NCBI RefSeq assembly: GCF_030643825.1
Contig: NZ_CP101717.1
Coordinates: forward strand, 1,302,001-1,366,000
DNA from: Salinispirillum sp. LH 10-3-1
GTDB taxonomy: Bacteria; Pseudomonadota; Gammaproteobacteria; Pseudomonadales; Natronospirillaceae
Reading direction: 5' to 3'
DNA: 64,000 nt
The translations under genes were made by a program, and so were the position numbers. Shown here in pieces: positions 32,619 to 42,423 of the stretch. Positions within the stretch are counted from its first letter, which is position 1; the number at the start of each line of letters is the position of its first letter. A model generated the notes under the pieces. The model did not search any database. It had not been told where the DNA came from and saw only the letters and a list, made by a program, of their open reading frames with translations.

Positions 32619-34190
32619 ATGCTACAAGACATCAAGAAAACCCTGTGGGCCACCGCCGATAAACTGCGTGCCAACGTCGATGCCGCCGAGTACAAGCACA
32701 TTGTACTGGGGCTGATTTTCTTAAAATTTATCTCTGACTCATTCGCCGGCCGCCGGGCAGAATTGCTTAAGCGTTTAAAAGACCCAAAAGACGAGCTGTA
32801 TTTTGCCGATGCCAGCGAAGATGATTTAGCGGCAGAGCTGGAAGACCGCGACTATTTTAAAATGGCCAATGTGTTTTGGGTGCCGGAAGGTGCGCGCTGG
32901 GAAGCCCTGCGCGCTAATGCCAAGCAGGCCGATATTGGCAAGCGCATTGATGATGCCTTAGCCGTGATCGAGCTCGAAAACCCTACCTTAAAAGGCATTT
33001 TAGATAAACGCTACGCCCGTGCGCCGCTGCCCGATGGCAAGTTGGGTGAGCTGGTGGATGTGATCTCCACCATTGGTTTTGGTGAAGACCAAAGCAAAGC
33101 GCGCGATATTTTGGGCCAGGTATACGAGTACTTTTTAGGCCAGTTTGCCAGTGCCGAGGGTAAAAAGGGCGGCCAGTTCTACACGCCGCAGTCTATCGTT
33201 AATACCTTAGTAGCGGTGCTCGACCCACACCAGGGCAAGGTTTACGACCCCTGCTGTGGCAGTGGCGGCATGTTTGTGCAATCTGAGAAGTTTATTGAAG
33301 CCCACGGCGGCAAGCTGGGCGATGTGTCTATTTACGGCCAGGAGTCTAACCCGACCACTTGGCGCTTAGCGGCAATGAACCTGGCCATTCGCGGTATCGA
33401 TTTTAATTTAGGCCGCGAGCCTGCTGATACCTTTATTAAAAACCAGCACAGCGATTTACGCGCCGATTATATTCTGGCTAACCCGCCGTTTAATATCAGC
33501 GATTGGTGGCACGGCAGTTTGGAAGGCGACCCGCGCTGGGTCTATGGCACACCGCCACAGGGTAATGCCAACTACGCCTGGTTGCAGCACATGCTGTATC
33601 ACCTAAAACCCAATGGTCGCGCCGGCATTGTGCTGGCTAATGGTTCGATGAGTTCCAGCCAAAATAGCGAAGGCGAGATCCGCCGCGCCATGGTCGATGC
33701 CGATGTGGTGGAGGTGATGGTCGCGCTACCGGGCCAGCTGTTCTTTAACACCCAAATACCAGCCTGTTTGTGGTTTTTAACCAAGCAAAAGCAGCAGCGT
33801 AAAGGCGAAGTATTGTTTATTGATGCACGTAAACTCGGCAAGATGATCAGCCGCGTGCAAACCGAACTTGATCAAGCCGCCATTGATCGCATTGCCAATA
33901 CCGTAAAAGCCTGGCGCGGTGATGACTTATCCAACGTCGAAGGCTTTGAGCAGGGTTACACCGATATTCCCGGCTTTTGCCGCAGCGTGCCGCTTTCTGA
34001 GATTGCCGAACACGGCCATGTACTCACACCAGGGCGTTATGTTGGCGCGGAAGCAGTGGAAGATTGCGACGAAGCCTTTGCCGACAAGATGACTGTGCTT
34101 ACCGAAAAGCTTGGCGAGCAAATGGCCAAAGGCGCAGAGTTGGACCAGTTAATCCGCCAGAAGCTGGGAGGGCTGGGGTATGAGTTCTGA
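32619..34190 (+). CDS. hsdM: Type I restriction-modification methyltransferase HsdM
   Basis: N6-adenine methyltransferase subunit of a type I system, 523 residues. It has an N-terminal HsdM_N helical domain (about 5-140), SAM-binding DPCCGSGG (210-217) and the catalytic NPPF (288-291). Size (EcoR124I HsdM about 520) fits the type IC group. It acts with HsdS to methylate and with HsdR to cut. Its last 11 bases overlap hsdS. First gene of the island; 178 bases separate it from the left repeat, with no clear promoter found. Confidence 0.96.
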   Translation: MLQDIKKTLWATADKLRANVDAAEYKHIVLGLIFLKFISDSFAGRRAELLKRLKDPKDELYFADASEDDLAAELEDRDYFKMANVFWVPEGARWEALRANAKQADIGKRIDDALAVIELENPTLKGILDKRYARAPLPDGKLGELVDVISTIGFGEDQSKARDILGQVYEYFLGQFASAEGKKGGQFYTPQSIVNTLVAVLDPHQGKVYDPCCGSGGMFVQSEKFIEAHGGKLGDVSIYGQESNPTTWRLAAMNLAIRGIDFNLGREPADTFIKNQHSDLRADYILANPPFNISDWWHGSLEGDPRWVYGTPPQGNANYAWLQHMLYHLKPNGRAGIVLANGSMSSSQNSEGEIRRAMVDADVVEVMVALPGQLFFNTQIPACLWFLTKQKQQRKGEVLFIDARKLGKMISRVQTELDQAAIDRIANTVKAWRGDDLSNVEGFEQGYTDIPGFCRSVPLSEIAEHGHVLTPGRYVGAEAVEDCDEAFADKMTVLTEKLGEQMAKGAELDQLIRQKLGGLGYEF

Positions 34191-35475
34191 GTGGGTATTG
34201 CAGAAGTTATCGACACTTGGAACATTCGATCGGGGCAAGTCGAAGCATCGACCGCGTGATGCAGCTCATTTATACGGTGGTCCTTATCCTTTCATTCAAA
34301 CTGGTGACGTTACAGCATCAGGAGGGAGAATAACTACATATCGGCAAACTTATTCTGAGGCAGGATTGGCGCAGAGTAGGTTATGGCCAGTCAATACGCT
34401 TTGTATCACTATTGCTGCCAATATTGCGGAAACAGGCCTATTAACATTTCCCGCATGTTTTCCTGATAGTGTTGTCGGTTTTACGGCAGATCCTAAAAAA
34501 GCAGACATTAGATTTATCGAGTATATTTTCCAAGCGTTTAGAGCTTCGGTTAAAAGCAAGGCTTATGGAAGTGTTCAGGAGAACATTAATCTCGAAGTGC
34601 TGAGGAATTTAGAGTTCCCTATACCTTCTTTAAATAATCAAAAGAAAATTGCTGACTTTTTCACCCTGATAGACGACCGCATAGCCCTGCTACGCGAAAC
34701 CAACACCACCTTAGAAGCCATCGCCCAGGCGCTGTTCAAATCCTGGTTTGTCGATTTTGACCCAGTGCACGCCAATGCCGGCACGCAAGCCCCCAGCCTG
34801 CCAGCTGACATCCAAGCGCTATTCCCCTCCCGCCTGGTGGAATCCCCGCAGGGGTTGATACCGGAGGGGTGGGAGTGGAAGCAACTTGTTGAAGCTTATG
34901 AAATAAATCCTAAAAGACAACTAAAAAAGGGGGCGGTAGCGAAATACTTGGATATGGCCAGTGTTCAGACACAAGGCCATGTTACAGCAGATGTTATTGA
35001 ACGGGAGTTTGGTTCAGGTACAAAGTTCTGCAATGGCGACACTTTGCTGGCGCGAATTACACCATGCCTTGAAAATGGTAAAACGGCATTCGTTGATTTT
35101 TTAGATCCTGATGAAATTGGTTGGGGATCCACAGAGTTTGTTGTCTTGAAGCCAAAAGCACCATTACCAGATTTTCATGGCTACTTATTGGCGAGACAAT
35201 CGGTTTTCAGAGATTTTGCAATTCAAAGTATGTCAGGTACCAGCGGGCGACAACGTGTTCAAAATGATGTGTTAGGCAGTTTTACTATTGCAATGCCAGA
35301 TGAGAGAGTCGCTAATGCATTTTCGCAAGTGGTTACCCCAATACAGCAAAGTATTTCAGCTAATCATAGGAAAGCTCAAACACTCGCTAACTTGCGAGAC
35401 ACCTTACTTCCCCGTCTAATTTCCGGCCAGTTGCGTTTGCCAGAGGCTGAAGTAGTTTTGGTAGAGGTGTCATAA
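34180..35475 (+). CDS. hsdS: Type I specificity subunit HsdS
   Basis: Recognises the two halves of a bipartite DNA site and bridges HsdM and HsdR. The 431 residues hold two target-recognition domains (about 1-155 and 215-380), each followed by a conserved helical spacer: KKIADFFTLIDDRIALLRET near 155-200, and KAQTLANLRDTLLPRLISGQ at the C-terminus. The recognition domains are AT-rich, the spacers GC-rich. The ATG at 34180 lies behind GGGAGGG inside hsdM. The DNA site cannot be read from sequence alone. Confidence 0.95.
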   Translation: MSSEWVLQKLSTLGTFDRGKSKHRPRDAAHLYGGPYPFIQTGDVTASGGRITTYRQTYSEAGLAQSRLWPVNTLCITIAANIAETGLLTFPACFPDSVVGFTADPKKADIRFIEYIFQAFRASVKSKAYGSVQENINLEVLRNLEFPIPSLNNQKKIADFFTLIDDRIALLRETNTTLEAIAQALFKSWFVDFDPVHANAGTQAPSLPADIQALFPSRLVESPQGLIPEGWEWKQLVEAYEINPKRQLKKGAVAKYLDMASVQTQGHVTADVIEREFGSGTKFCNGDTLLARITPCLENGKTAFVDFLDPDEIGWGSTEFVVLKPKAPLPDFHGYLLARQSVFRDFAIQSMSGTSGRQRVQNDVLGSFTIAMPDERVANAFSQVVTPIQQSISANHRKAQTLANLRDTLLPRLISGQLRLPEAEVVLVEVS

Positions 35476-35600
35476 ATCATGCTCAACAATCAACTCAGTG
35501 GGTTGATAGCCACGCTGGAGGCTAGAATTGTATTCGAAAAGCTACAGCAGTAATCAAGTTCTAGTTATCTGTTGTGTCAAATAATGGGCAGGGAGTGTTT

Positions 35601-37961
35601 ATGAAAGGTTTTTCTAATCCGGAAGCGCGTGAATTTTTACAACGGATGAAGACTGAAAAAAACCATGAATGGTTTAGTGCTGCAATTACTGTAATCAGGG
35701 CCACATTCCCTAATGCTGATGTTTGGTTAACTGGCGGGATGGATAAACAATACATCGACGTTCGAATTGGCCGTAAGACTAGAGACAGTAAGGCAGGTCA
35801 GCCGGTTCTGTATGTCTTTTGTCGCAAAGGCTGGGATGAGCCGAAACTGGAGACTAGCGAAAGCCAACTGAACTCCACTTTTGTTCTCACTCCAAGCAGT
35901 CATCGAACCGTTTCAGAACTAACAGCATTTTTTGCTGAGAACAGTGAAGTGTTCTCGGCTGTAAAACACAAGTTGGAGGGCAGTGGTTTAAACCCCGATG
36001 ATTATGGTTACGAAGTAAGTGATGACTTGCTATATAAGGAAAAAATAATTAAGAGTATAACCTTGCCCCTGAACCAAATTCTCTATGGCCCGCCCGGCAC
36101 TGGAAAAACCTACGAAACAATTCGAGCTGCGCTTGCCATTCTCGATCCTGAATCAGTAGCGGACTATGATGCCATGATGCAACCGTCTAGAACTCCTGCA
36201 GAAAAGCAAAATGCGCGTCAGGTGTTAAAAGCGCGGTTTGACCTTCTGCACCATGACAACTACGTCCAGTTTGTGACCTTTCATCAAAGCTTTAGCTATG
36301 AGGATTTCGTTGAGGGTATTAGGGCGGAGGCAGATGAGGTAACCAAACAAATTCAGTATCAAGTGGTAGATGGTGTTTTTAAAAGCTTGTGCGAGCTTGC
36401 AGACGTTCGGGTCACAAAACAAGCCGAAGCACCGGTTGATTTGTCAGGCCGAAGGGTTTGGAAAATGTCCTTAGGTAACACCTTAGGCAGTGATGCTAGC
36501 ATCTACGACGAGTGTATTGAGAACGACTGTATATTACTGGGCTATGGTGACAACATAGACTTTTCTGCTTGTAACACAAGAGCTGAGATCCGAGCTCAGT
36601 TTGAGCAGCAAGGAATAAGCTTAAATGGCAATAATGATTACAACTTAACCAGCGTGAGCATCTTCATCACTAAAATGAAGTTGGGTGATTTGGTTGTAGT
36701 GAGTGATGGAAATTTTAAGTTCCGTGCAATCGCGGAAATCACTGGTGACTATGATTATCATCCACACCCAGACTATGACGATGGTTATGCACAGAAAAGA
36801 AAAGTGAAGTGGTTACGTCAATTCACACCTTCGTTGCCGCATACAGAGCTACTCACCGGACAATTTAGCCAAATGACATTGTATGAGCTGAAGAAACCCA
36901 GCTTAGACAAAGTAAAACTTGAAACCCTGCTGGGTACGAAAACATCTGCTGCAAGCTCAGCAAATTTCAGTATTGGGCAAGTAATAGGACGAGATTACAA
37001 AATTGTCAGGGTAACGCCCGATTTGGTTGAGCTTAAAAAGCCCAACGATAATTTACTGCCTTTTGCCATGAGCATGCTTGATGAGTTAGCAACGGCGGTT
37101 CGCCAAGGTAAAATAACCGTCGAGGATATTCGAAAGAAAACAGCCATAGAGAAGTTGCCAGGTTCAAATTTGGAACCTTACCTGGTGAATGGTTATCAGA
37201 ATGTTTTGGCACCCCTTGTTCAGTTCATGCTTTCTGTGAACAGCGAGAAACTGAAGGGCACAGCACCGAATGCGCGAGTTCTGATCATTGATGAAATTAA
37301 CCGTGGCAACATTTCGCGGATTTTTGGTGAGCTCATCACATTGATTGAGCCCAGCAAGCGAGCCGGAGCAGGTGAAGAGCTTGAAGTCGTTCTTCCGTAT
37401 TCGAAAAAGCGATTTAAAGTGCCAAGCAACCTCTACATCATTGGCACAATGAACACGGCCGACCGCTCTTTAGCCGGGCTAGATTTAGCGTTGCGCCGCC
37501 GTTTTACTTTTGTCGAAATGCCACCCAAGCCGGAACTGTTAGATGGCCTGATGGTTGAAGGTATTGATATTGGACAAATGCTGCGGGTGATGAACCAGCG
37601 TATCACGGCACTGCTGGATCGCGATCACTGTATTGGCCATGCTTACTTTATGCCGCTTTTTGATAGCCCAAGCCTGCAACGGCTGGCAGATATATTCTCG
37701 CAAAACATCTTGCCGCTGCTGCAGGAGTACTTCTTTGAAGACTGGCAGCGCATTCGGTGGATACTGGCCGACCAGACTAAATCAGTTTCTTTTGCCTTTG
37801 TGGTCAACGATGAACAAATCGATGCGCAACAGCTGTTCCCTAGCGTGGCACAATTTAAGCCACGTGAGTGCTGGCGCATAAATACCAGCGCATTTATGCA
37901 GGTTGAAGCCTATCAACGTATTTACCAAGCTGAAAAAGAAGTAACGGGGCCGGAAGCCTAA
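35601..37961 (+). CDS. mcrB: McrB-like GTPase with an internal EVE/PUA-like domain
   Basis: NTP-driven motor of a type IV, modification-dependent restriction system. From the ATG at 35601 (behind AGGGAG; an upstream GTG lacks a site) it has 786 residues. Order: an unrecognised N-terminal region (1-145); Walker A GPPGTGKT (163-170) of the McrB AAA+ module; an inserted domain (about 285-431) starting VWKMSLG and containing ILLGYGDN, GDLVVVSDG, AEITGDYDYH and KRKVKWL, which resembles EVE/PUA-like modified-base readers; then Walker B VLIIDEINRGN (560-570) and the McrB signature GTMNTADRS (615-623). The classical DUF3578 DNA-binding domain is not evident. The insertion call is from motif memory, not a search. 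mcrC follows with overlapping TAATG. Confidence 0.88.
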   Translation: MKGFSNPEAREFLQRMKTEKNHEWFSAAITVIRATFPNADVWLTGGMDKQYIDVRIGRKTRDSKAGQPVLYVFCRKGWDEPKLETSESQLNSTFVLTPSSHRTVSELTAFFAENSEVFSAVKHKLEGSGLNPDDYGYEVSDDLLYKEKIIKSITLPLNQILYGPPGTGKTYETIRAALAILDPESVADYDAMMQPSRTPAEKQNARQVLKARFDLLHHDNYVQFVTFHQSFSYEDFVEGIRAEADEVTKQIQYQVVDGVFKSLCELADVRVTKQAEAPVDLSGRRVWKMSLGNTLGSDASIYDECIENDCILLGYGDNIDFSACNTRAEIRAQFEQQGISLNGNNDYNLTSVSIFITKMKLGDLVVVSDGNFKFRAIAEITGDYDYHPHPDYDDGYAQKRKVKWLRQFTPSLPHTELLTGQFSQMTLYELKKPSLDKVKLETLLGTKTSAASSANFSIGQVIGRDYKIVRVTPDLVELKKPNDNLLPFAMSMLDELATAVRQGKITVEDIRKKTAIEKLPGSNLEPYLVNGYQNVLAPLVQFMLSVNSEKLKGTAPNARVLIIDEINRGNISRIFGELITLIEPSKRAGAGEELEVVLPYSKKRFKVPSNLYIIGTMNTADRSLAGLDLALRRRFTFVEMPPKPELLDGLMVEGIDIGQMLRVMNQRITALLDRDHCIGHAYFMPLFDSPSLQRLADIFSQNILPLLQEYFFEDWQRIRWILADQTKSVSFAFVVNDEQIDAQQLFPSVAQFKPRECWRINTSAFMQVEAYQRIYQAEKEVTGPEA

Positions 37962-39274
37962 TGCAGCCGGTCGTGGTGCGCGAATATGCTCGCCTAACGT
38001 CTGCGCCTCTGGCTGCGAATACGCTGGATCAAGCGCACATACCGGTGTCAGCCTTTAGCTGGTTGGTAAAGCTGGGCCAGCAATTTAAAGCCAACGGTTT
38101 GCAATTGTTGCAGCTTGATGATCAGCAGTGGCTGCGGCTGGATAACTATGTTGGTGTGCTGGAATCGCCCTGCGGCCAGGTAATTGAGATATTGCCTAAG
38201 CACAGGGTTGAGGGCGAATGTGTTGGTAGCGCCCGTATGTTGCTGCGTAAGCTTATTTTAAATGCCATGCAGCTTAAGCAACGTGAAACACAGCATACCG
38301 ATATAGAGCGCTTTGATGCGCCCTTGCCTGAATGGTTAATGCAGCAGTTTTTAACCGAGCTGGATCATTTGATAAAGCGTGGTTTGCGTTTTGACTACCA
38401 CCGGGTAGAAGAGCAACAACGATTTTTGCGTGGCCAGTTAGATGTAGTAAAGCAGTTGCGCCAACCGCCTGGGCGCGAGCATGTGTTTCATATCCGCCAT
38501 GATGTATTTTCCGCCGACCGGCCAGAAAACCGGTTGCTTAAAGCGGCACTGCTGCGCGTATGCAAAACTACGCAAGATAACAACAACTGGCGTTTAGCGC
38601 ATGAACTGCAAAGCATGCTGCAAGAATTGCCGGTATCAACGGATTTTCAAAGTGATTTTAAGTTCTGGCGCACTGATCGCTTGATGGCGCATTATCAGGC
38701 GATCAAGCCTTGGTGCGAGTTTGTGCTTAGCCAGCATGTGCCCCTTGCAGTGCAAGGGCAGTGGCAGGGCATTAGCATGCTGTTCCCGATGGAGCGCTTA
38801 TTTGAAAGCTATGTTGCCGCTGAACTTGGTGCAGCGGCCCAGCGCATGCCGGGTATCAAAGGCGAAGTGAATACCCAGCTAGCCAGCAAGTATTTATGTA
38901 CACACCAAGGCAAAGACTTTTTTCAGTTAAAGCCAGACTTGCAACTTAAGTTGGGTGCAAAGCGTTGGATCTTGGATACCAAGTGGAAGTTACTTGATGT
39001 CGCGGATCGGGAAAAAAAGTATGGGTTAAGCCACCAGGATTTTTATCAGCTTTTTGCCTATGGTCAATATTATCTGGGCGGTGAGGGCACGCTGGTACTG
39101 ATTTATCCCGCATGGGAAAAGTTTCCGAGTGGTACTCGTTTGGCAGAATTTTGTTTTAATGATCAACTCAGGCTTTTGGTACTGCCTTTTGATCTTGAAG
39201 ACGACGATGCAGCGTTCAATTTGATTGTGCAGCTGCAGCAGAGTAACCCGCAGCCGATACATCGAGTAGGCTGA
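37961..39274 (+). CDS. mcrC: McrC-like nuclease subunit
   Basis: Nuclease partner of McrB, 437 residues. N-terminal McrC domain (about 40-290) and a C-terminal PD-(D/E)xK nuclease with D326 in LKPDLQL and D339-x-K341 in WILDTKWK. It binds the McrB hexamer, stimulates NTP hydrolysis and cuts DNA. Its start overlaps the mcrB stop by one base. It lies 17 bases before hsdR, so the type IV pair sits inside the type I operon. Confidence 0.92.
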
Positions 39275-39291
39275 AAGTATTGGGGAGTGGT

Positions 39292-42200
39292 ATGACGGAA
39301 GACCAGTTAGAGCAGGAAGTGCTGGGATGGCTGAGCGAGGTTGGCTATACACCGGTTAATGGCTATGACATTGCCCCGGACGGACCCGCTGCCGAGCGCG
39401 CTGATTATGTGCAGCCCTTGTTACTCGAACGCCTTAAGGCATCGATTGCCCGCTTAAATCCCCATATCCCCCTAGTAGCTCAAGATGATGCGCTGGCTCA
39501 GCTTAAGGAGCTGGGTATACCGGCGCTGATGTCAGCCAACCGACGTTTTCACAACCTGCTGTTAAGCGGCGTGCCGGTGCAGTACCAAAAAGACGGTGAA
39601 ACCCGTGGTGATTTTGTTCAGCTGATTGACTGGGAAAACAGCCCCGGCAGCAATGAGTTTTTAGCGGCCAACCAATACACCCTCAAAGGACCGAAGCATT
39701 CGCGCCGGCCAGACATCATTCTGTTTATTAACGGCTTGCCGCTGGTGCTGATTGAGCTAAAAAACCCGGCCGATGTGCATGCCGACATCTGGAAGGCGTT
39801 CGATCAAATTCAAACCTACAAAGAACAAATCCCTGATGTATTTCAGTACAACGAAATACTGGTGATCAGCGATGGCTCGGAAGCGCGCATGGGCTCGCTC
39901 TCGGCCAATGCTGAGCGCTTTATGCAGTGGCGTACCATAGATGGCGCTAACCTGGATCCTTTGGGGCAGTTTGATGAACTGGAAACCATGGTGCATGGCG
40001 TGTTTGCACCAGAGTACTTGCTGGATTACCTGCGCTTTTTTGTGTTGTTTGAAGACGATGGCACCCTGGTAAAAAAGATAGCCGGTTATCATCAGTTCCA
40101 TGCGGTGCGCTCGGCGATTCAGCAGGTGGTGACCGCTTCGCGTGATGATGTGCAGGCCAAGCATAAAGGCAAAGGTGGGGTGGTGTGGCATACTCAGGGC
40201 AGTGGTAAAAGCATTACCATGACTTGCTTTGCTGCTCGGGTGATGCGTGAAGCCGCGATGGAAAATCCGACCATTGTCGTGATCACCGACCGTAATGACC
40301 TTGACGGCCAGTTGTTTGGCGTATTTTCGCTGGCGCAAGACTTATTGCGCGAGCAACCAGTGCAGGTGGATACGCGGCAAGACTTACGCGAAAAGCTCAG
40401 CAACCGACCTTCGGGCGGGATTGTCTTTGCCACTATTCAAAAGTTTGCTCCGGGTGCTGATGAGGATAAGTTCCCAGTGCTTTCCACTCGACATAATATC
40501 GTGGTGATTGCTGATGAGGCGCATCGCACCCAGTACGGCTTTGATGCCAAGTTGAAAGAAAAAACCCACGTCAGAGAGGCAGCAGAGCCTAAAGCGACGT
40601 ACAACGTGTTTCAAGTTGGCTACGCACAGCACCTTCGTGACGCCTTACCCAACGCTACTTTTGTGGCTTTTACCGGTACACCGGTATCCAGTGAAGACCG
40701 TGATACTCGTGCGGTGTTTGGCGATTATATTCACATCTACGACATGCAGCAGGCGAAAGAAGATGGTGCTACGGTGGCCATATACTATGAGTCGCGTTTG
40801 GCAAAGCTCAGCCTGAAGCAGGATGAATTGCCGCAAGTAGATGATGACGTAGACGAGTTGGCCGAGGACGAAGAGGAAGAGCAGCAGAGTAAGTTGAAAA
40901 GTAAGTGGGCAGCGCTTGAGCGCGTAGTCGGTGCTGCACCTCGTATTCAGCAGGTTGCCCAAGATCTAGTAGCGCATTTTGACGAAAGAAATAAAGCTCA
41001 GCAGGGTAAAGCCATGGTGGTCGCGATGAGTCGCGAGATCTGTGTACACCTGTACAACGAAATTGTGTCGCTGCGCCCAGAATGGCATGACGATGACCCC
41101 GAAAAGGGCGGTATTAAAGTGATTATGACTGGCTCAGCCAGCGACAAAGCCTTGTTGCGGCCACACATTCACCCTAAGCAGGTGAAAAAGCGACTGGAGA
41201 AGCGCTTTAAAGACCCGGCAGATCCGTTGCAGCTAGTGATCGTGCGCGATATGTGGCTGACGGGTTTTGATGCACCTTGCGTGCATACTTTGTATGTCGA
41301 TAAGCCGATGAAAGGACACAACCTGATGCAGGCTATTGCTCGCGTAAATCGGGTATTTAAAGACAAACAAGGTGGTTTGGTGGTGGATTACATAGGCATC
41401 GCCAATGAGCTTAAAGCCGCTCTTAAGGAATACTCCGCCAGCAATGGCCGAGGTAAACCTACCGTGGATGCTGCAGAAGCCTGGGCAGTGCTGGAAGAGA
41501 AGCTCGACATACTGCGCGGTATGCTGCATGGCTTTGACTATGGTGACTTTGGCGTCAGTAGCCATAAGTTGATTGCTGGTGCGGCTAACCATGTGCTGGG
41601 CGTTCAGGATGGAAAGAGGCGCTTTGCCGATACGACGCTTGCCATGAGTAAAGCCTTCAGCTTGTGCTGTACGCTGGACGAAGCTAAAGCGGTACGAGAG
41701 GAAGTTGCCTTTCTGCAGGCCGTGAAGGTGTTGCTGACTAAGCGCGAAATCAGTAATAAAAAGCGCAGTGATGAAGAAAAGGAACAGGCAATTCGGCAGA
41801 TTATCGGTCAGGCCATAGTGTCTGATCAGGTAGTGGATATTTTCGATGCGGTCGGTTTGGATAAGCCCAATATCGGACTGTTAGATGATGAGTTTTTGAA
41901 TGAGGTGCGAAACCTGCCTGAACGCAACTTGGCGGTTGAACTTTTGGAGCGCTTGCTGGAAGGTCAGATAAAGACTCGCTTTGCCAGTAACGTAATTCAG
42001 CAAAAGAAATTCTCCGAGATGCTCATCAATGTGGTCATTCGTTATCAAAACCGCAGCATAGAAACCGCTCAGGTCATGGAAGAATTGGTCGAGATGGCGA
42101 AGAAATTCCGCGAAGCAGCCAAGCGTGGCGAAGAACTCGGTTTGTCAGATGACGAGGTGAAATTTTACGATGCTTTGGTGAACAATCAAGCGGCTGTACT

Positions 42201-42423
42201 GGAGCTGGGGGACGAAACGCTTAAGAAAATTGCTCATGAGCTTACCGAAAATCTGCGTAAGAACATCAGTATCGATTGGAGTAAGCGTGAGAGCGTGCGT
42301 GCCAGTTTGCGACTGATGGTTAAGCGTATCCTGCGTAAATATAAGTACCCGCCAGACCAAGCTGAGGAAGCGATTCAGCTCGTGTTACAGCAGGCAGAGG
42401 CATTGGGAGAAGAGTGGGTGTGA
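39292..42423 (+). CDS. hsdR: Type I restriction subunit HsdR
   Basis: ATP-dependent translocase and endonuclease of the type I system, 1043 residues from the ATG at 39292 behind GGGGAG; a TTG 12 bases earlier is less likely. N-terminal nuclease [22 protein letters not shown] (D141, E155, K157); SF2 motor with Walker A TQGSGKS (about 301-307), DEAHRTQYG and VAFTGTP; later SF2 motifs [10 protein letters not shown] and [10 protein letters not shown]; then a helical C-terminal region for HsdM contact. Length near EcoR124I HsdR (1038) supports type IC. It lies 29 bases from the right repeat. Confidence 0.96.

Follow-up and report, generated by a model that had tools for sequence, protein, structure and literature searches.

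The stretch of DNA analysed here, hereafter referred to as the window, is a 64,000-nucleotide segment of the Salinispirillum sp. LH 10-3-1 genome. At positions 32619–42423 it contains five genes in the order hsdM-hsdS-mcrB-mcrC-hsdR, with mcrBC nested between hsdS and hsdR:

32619..34190, forward strand: hsdM, type I N6-adenine methyltransferase subunit (PF02384, 2.1e-110)
34180..35475, forward strand: hsdS, type I specificity subunit (PF01420, 3.2e-22, in two stretches)
35601..37961, forward strand: mcrB, McrB-family AAA+ GTPase of 786 aa (PF07728, 1.6e-14; phmmer to 6ut3, 1.4e-58)
37961..39274, forward strand: mcrC, McrBC nuclease subunit (PF10117, 1.1e-99 over the full model)
39304..42423, forward strand: hsdR, type I restriction subunit (PF04313, PF18766 and PF11867; alternative start TTG at 39280)

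Among 80 relatives from public genomes, mcrC lies immediately 3′ of mcrB in 78, and for 18 of these 78 the fetched stretch also includes hsdM, hsdS and hsdR, mostly in the same order as in the window. This operon context fits what has been published on the E. coli K-12 McrB branch, which the cited sections of PMC11090510 describe as often located within type I restriction-modification operons.

The mcrB frame is open from the ATG at 35601 (or a GTG at 35574) through 37961. Its product possesses a Walker A motif, GPPGTGKT, at residues 163–170, and a Walker B motif, VLIIDEINRG, at residues 560–569, followed by the McrB signature NTAD (NxxD). The Pfam search identified an AAA_5-type core (PF07728) over the cut-off, and the NCBIfam McrB model PRK11331 matches at 1.3e-39, under its curated cut-off. 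In a phmmer comparison to the PDB, the McrB proteins of Thermococcus gammatolerans (TgMcrB, 6ut3, E 1.4e-58) and E. coli (EcMcrB, 6hz4, E 1.4e-37) were both matched, in separate pieces only. By its motifs, its core and its adjoining McrC, the window protein is an intact McrB GTPase of the NxxD clade, McrB being the motor of a bacterial antiviral restriction system directed at DNA with chemical marks. Membership of the CoCoNuT systems, defined by an NxD McrB and coiled coils (criterion from PMC11090510), was considered and rejected, as the motif here is NTAD and not NxD. The AAA+ core is divided in two parts:

36069..36383, forward strand: AAA+ core part 1, residues 157–261, with Walker A (163–170), FHQSFSYEDFVEG and the helix 2 motif GVFK
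37278..37958, forward strand: AAA+ core part 2, residues 560–786, with Walker B, the NTAD sensor motif, the arginines and the C-terminal helical part

The initial annotation had remarked that Walker A and Walker B are ∼390 residues apart, too far for an AAA+ core, and there are indeed ∼290 extra residues before Walker B. The EcMcrB match ends at query residue 269, at the end of helix 2, and restarts at 559, the corresponding EcMcrB points being 107 and 113. The query gap 269–559 is thus matched by ∼5 residues in EcMcrB, and the gap 269–539 by ∼43 residues in TgMcrB. With such short counterparts, the extra length is a real insertion into the AAA+ core, and from the motif order and the standard AAA+ topology I infer that it replaces the connection between helix 2 and strand 3. 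The alternative that it is a known McrB stalk element was rejected, as EcMcrB has just ∼5 residues at this place and the relative L079 almost none.

The first part of the insertion corresponds to the following feature:

36447..36938, forward strand: inserted EVE/YTH-like (PUA-like) domain, residues 283–446 (AF2, Foldseek, VIA-align and conservation)

An EVE-like block had been proposed at residues ∼285–431; the block is present, but its limits had to be corrected to 283–446. It is found at the same place in 40 of ∼70 readable proteins (window copy counted), a recurrence far beyond chance. An alignment of 39 copies of the insert, comprising 172 columns of which 14 are invariant, served as input for AlphaFold2, and the model obtained for residues 283–446 has a mean pLDDT of 92.8 and a pTM of 0.88. 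The top Foldseek matches are all EVE domains (2p5d, 1wmm), YTH domains (many) or VcaM4I, and VIA-align gave Z scores of 11.2 for the EVE protein 2p5d (rmsd 2.8 over 118 residues), 10.6 for YTHDF2 and 9.9 for VcaM4I. The prediction that this region folds as a PUA-like β-barrel of the EVE/YTH type is well supported. Together with the split McrB matches, the predicted fold bears out the earlier proposal that such a domain lies within the AAA+ module itself.

At the level of sequence, the relationship is more distant. The initial annotation had suggested an EVE profile search alongside fold prediction, and only the latter gave the expected result: the Pfam EVE family (PF01878) does not match the window's own domain, for which the curated cut-off is not reached, and matches 6 of the 39 relatives' inserts weakly (best E 2.4e-4). 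The insert is therefore filed under the EVE/YTH superfamily, and not under PF01878. Alignment by hhalign to canonical proteobacterial EVE domains was weak (4–55% probability depending on the subtype, over short stretches), and the sequence profile of the insert found no meaningful match in the PDB. The matches to the PADLOC candidate PDC-S02 (E 6.6e-12) and to the domain that accompanies Mrr_cat in nucleases (99% in hhalign) are strong, and the closest sequence kin of the insert is the N-terminal domain of Mrr-type nucleases, with Pfam EVE as a weak relative. From the match to the Mrr-linked domain, the same type of reader would serve another restriction effector.

Two proteins of this type, L083 910–1959 (reverse strand) and L086 1423–2490 (forward strand), combine an insert-type EVE-like domain at the N-terminus with Mrr_cat (7.1e-27 and 5e-23, respectively). 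Their domain composition suggests that PDC-S02 is a modification-dependent restriction enzyme.

The initial annotation had treated the insertion as a single block, and overlooked a second one. The alignment of relatives reveals that residues 447–559, labeled POSTa, form another conserved unit, and a further domain is found at the N-terminus of the protein:

36939..37277, forward strand: second inserted block (POSTa), residues 447–559, core ∼455–545, from the alignment; no recognised family
35601..36014, forward strand: N-terminal domain, residues 1–138, alpha/beta, from an alignment of 10 relatives; no recognised family

POSTa gave no convincing match against Pfam, PADLOC or PDB sequences. The block (∼110 residues) was seen in McrB-sized frames only, being found 3 times in 398 genomes, each time in a frame of 543–798 residues. 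The N-terminal domain is common to the 10 relatives at 20–34% identity, and its AF2 model has pLDDT values, by blocks, mostly between 78 and 96 up to residue 130. No match was identified for it in Pfam or among PDB sequences, and the fold searches gave no clear match either (best Foldseek E 0.084). The best VIA-align score (Z 6.4) was to the DUF1801 protein 2oc6, below the noise line of the tool, and this modelled likeness is only a hint. The N-terminal ∼145 residues thus do remain unrecognised, as had been noted. With an EVE-like insert within the motor and this N-terminal domain, the protein could have two or more modules for recognition, in line with the earlier suggestion of two; the N-terminal domain and POSTa probably add sequence or modification specificity.

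I then compared the content of the slot between helix 2 and Walker B in 67 proteins, the window counted. EVE type 1 followed by POSTa, as in the window, is found in 19, POSTa alone in 13, EVE type 1 alone in 10, EVE type 2 alone in 10, and nothing recognisable in 2. The remaining 13 possess POSTb alone, a class sorted by its missing POSTa motif, which may contain more than one family. The two EVE types are homologous (hhalign 99%, identity 22–26%), but no kinship was detectable between POSTa and POSTb (hhalign 1.7%), and POSTb had no convincing match in the PDB. On a tree of the core, built with the slot excluded, the slot states need 19 changes, compared to ∼41 for shuffled labels, and the starred branches alone force several of these changes. 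Different slot contents occur on cores up to 84% identical. For example, the window and its sister L019 are 79–82% identical in the core segments and 82% identical in the EVE block, but L019 has no POSTa and an unrelated N-terminus. L023 is 78% identical to the window in the C-terminal core, and 92–95% in HsdM and HsdR, but differs in slot content and N-terminus, and L009 and L039, a starred pair on the core tree, are set apart by the whole EVE block, which L039 lacks. The slot is therefore a swap site, which may be empty or occupied by an EVE domain or a different block on its own, or by EVE together with a block; this repeated exchange had escaped the initial annotation. The same comparison disposes of the idea that the two-block insert results from mis-assembly or from the decay of a broken gene, which has a negligible probability, had nothing in its favour and was rejected: the two-block architecture recurs in 18 other relatives, the frame is open throughout, and McrC is intact.

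Variation of this kind is also seen across the operon. HsdM, HsdR and McrC of the window are 83–95% identical to those of L019 and L023, with HsdS, the McrB N-terminus and the slot being variable. Between the window and L019 the largest divergence is found in these same three regions, with HsdS at 35% identity, compared to 83–94% for HsdM, HsdR and McrC.

The structures of EVE-type proteins provide a basis for locating a base pocket in the insert. In VcaM4I, P24, W82 and Y130 hold the flipped base, and for the EVE protein 2eve the emphasis has been on W26 and Y82 (PMC7897488). By the order of secondary structure elements, and not by coordinate superposition, Y315, Y384 and F422 of the window McrB correspond to the known EVE/VcaM4I pocket; positions 315 and 384 fit W26 and Y82 of 2eve, and also W82 of VcaM4I (PMC7897488). 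Of 69 aligned members, 68 have W, Y or F at position 315 and 68 have Y at position 384; at position 422, 55 have F and 10 have G, and most of those with G are Mrr-linked copies. W404 is invariant across the 69 members. The conservation of Y315, Y384 and F422 supports a candidate aromatic base pocket. The aromatic cage that the initial annotation named as a sign of base reading would consist of these conserved aromatics, placed by sequence order and secondary structure and not from a ligand structure.

It could be argued that the EVE-like insert is degenerate or structural, contributing to a protein contact or to the hexamer or McrC interface and not to base reading, with recognition residing in the N-terminal domain. 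The insert is indeed located in the motor, a McrB relative, PcdA, has been modelled contacting FtsZ via its EVE-1 domain (PMC10602043), and few parts of the protein vary more from relative to relative than the N-terminal domain, a trait of specificity domains. However, L023, L045, L079 and L039 have similar cores with no EVE-like insert, so the motor can do without it; the 69-member set retains the pocket aromatics, and the same domain is found on Mrr nucleases. I consider a structural role improbable on this basis, and the EVE-like insert likely reads a modified base.

In McrBC systems, once a reader domain has bound the modified site, translocation by the GTPase hexamer is followed by cleavage by McrC. 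Adapted to the window protein, the EVE-like insert would flip a modified base into the aromatic pocket, and this capture would anchor the McrB hexamer on foreign DNA, with GTP-driven translocation together with McrC then leading to cleavage. The reader would most likely be the EVE-like insert, possibly aided by the N-terminal domain and the second block. As it is joined to the strand bearing Walker B, its coupling to the motor could be more direct than that of an N-terminal reader, although this is conjecture. Overall, there is good reason to regard this protein as a McrB whose helix 2–Walker B connection acts as a socket, holding an EVE/YTH-like reader of modified bases and then a second small module.

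Regarding the base itself, a modified cytosine would be a likelier target than the type I m6A of the operon's own methyltransferase. That the insert instead reads N6-methyladenine, similarly to the YTH domain of TgMcrB, a reader of 6mA, appears rather unlikely, although the YTH folds tie with EVE (Z 10.6 against 11.2) and the fold comparison does not tell the two apart. HsdM is an N6-adenine methyltransferase by family, so its site would need sparing, a mild argument against an m6A target, and the EVE-type match VcaM4I reads 5mC/5hmC. The genome also encodes one cytosine-C5 methyltransferase, apparently within a prophage, and a bare 5mC target would consequently have to be read in a context that leaves the host unharmed; a target of 5hmC, or of 5mC limited by sequence, would be compatible with this. 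This methyltransferase (L146 1447–3114, forward strand; G000:C1, ∼2.07 Mb) lies beside a DnaQ-like exonuclease in a prophage-like setting.

Of 398 genomes sampled from the phylum, 22 contain a match to the insert profile. In 16 of the 398 (∼4%, the window's genome counted), an McrB carries the domain between its Walker A and Walker B motifs, although this profile derives from copies in the slot, which biases the proportion of slot versus N-terminal positions towards the slot. Five of the 22 matching genomes have the domain in a nuclease-sized protein (341–415 residues) with no P-loop. In the remaining one, at L145 628–3030 (forward strand), the EVE-like domain of an McrB is located N-terminal to the AAA+ core and the slot is short, so that nature provides a counterpart to the inserted form. 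The insert is encoded by none of the viral contigs.

The view that McrB readers are known at the N-terminus only was overstated, both from this ∼4% and because the cited sections of Bell et al. (eLife 2024, PMC11090510) report insertions, likely to be specificity domains, as a frequent feature of the McrB GTPase domain. The sampled genomes and this report together indicate that the window architecture is recurrent and, in general terms, already known. That census resembles the window both in the GTPase-domain insertions and in the type I operon setting; the sections cited here give no fold, position or exchange analysis of the inserts, and defer this branch to a later paper. EVE-McrB is described as the commonest EVE architecture in defence genes in the cited part of Bell et al. 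(2020, PMC7641849). These fusions, like the window protein, place a reader of the EVE superfamily on a McrB GTPase with McrC adjoining, but in the window the reader lies between Walker A and Walker B, a position absent from the part of PMC7641849 cited here. TgMcrB possesses a PUA-like reader of similar fold and is the closest solved motor by sequence, but its YTH 6mA reader is N-terminal and its slot is short. VcaM4I, an EVE-HNH protein, is comparable to the insert in fold and in its pocket, with W82 and Y130 comparable to Y384 and F422, but is a single-chain HNH nuclease with no motor. The Mrr-type nucleases (PDC-S02), which outside McrB come nearest to the insert in sequence, differ in carrying the EVE-like reader N-terminal to Mrr_cat. 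The window system is therefore not a new kind; what stands out is the slot exchange, and the second block.

A bolder and more tentative reading, which I consider to fall short of an even chance, is that the connection from helix 2 to Walker B serves as an exchangeable socket for readers, giving up to three recognition modules per protomer (the N-terminal domain, the EVE-like domain and the second block) and coupling reading directly to the GTPase site. The modules of this putative socket would be two EVE subtypes and two further unrecognised types, swapped, stacked or removed on an unchanged motor. If this is correct, McrB would retarget by exchanging domains inside its motor, much as HsdS lets type I enzymes change target, and the second block and the N-terminal domain would have a plausible role as new readers of modified DNA. 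The series of closely similar cores with an empty slot, EVE, another block or both offers a natural test of reader control over the GTPase of the AAA+ ring.
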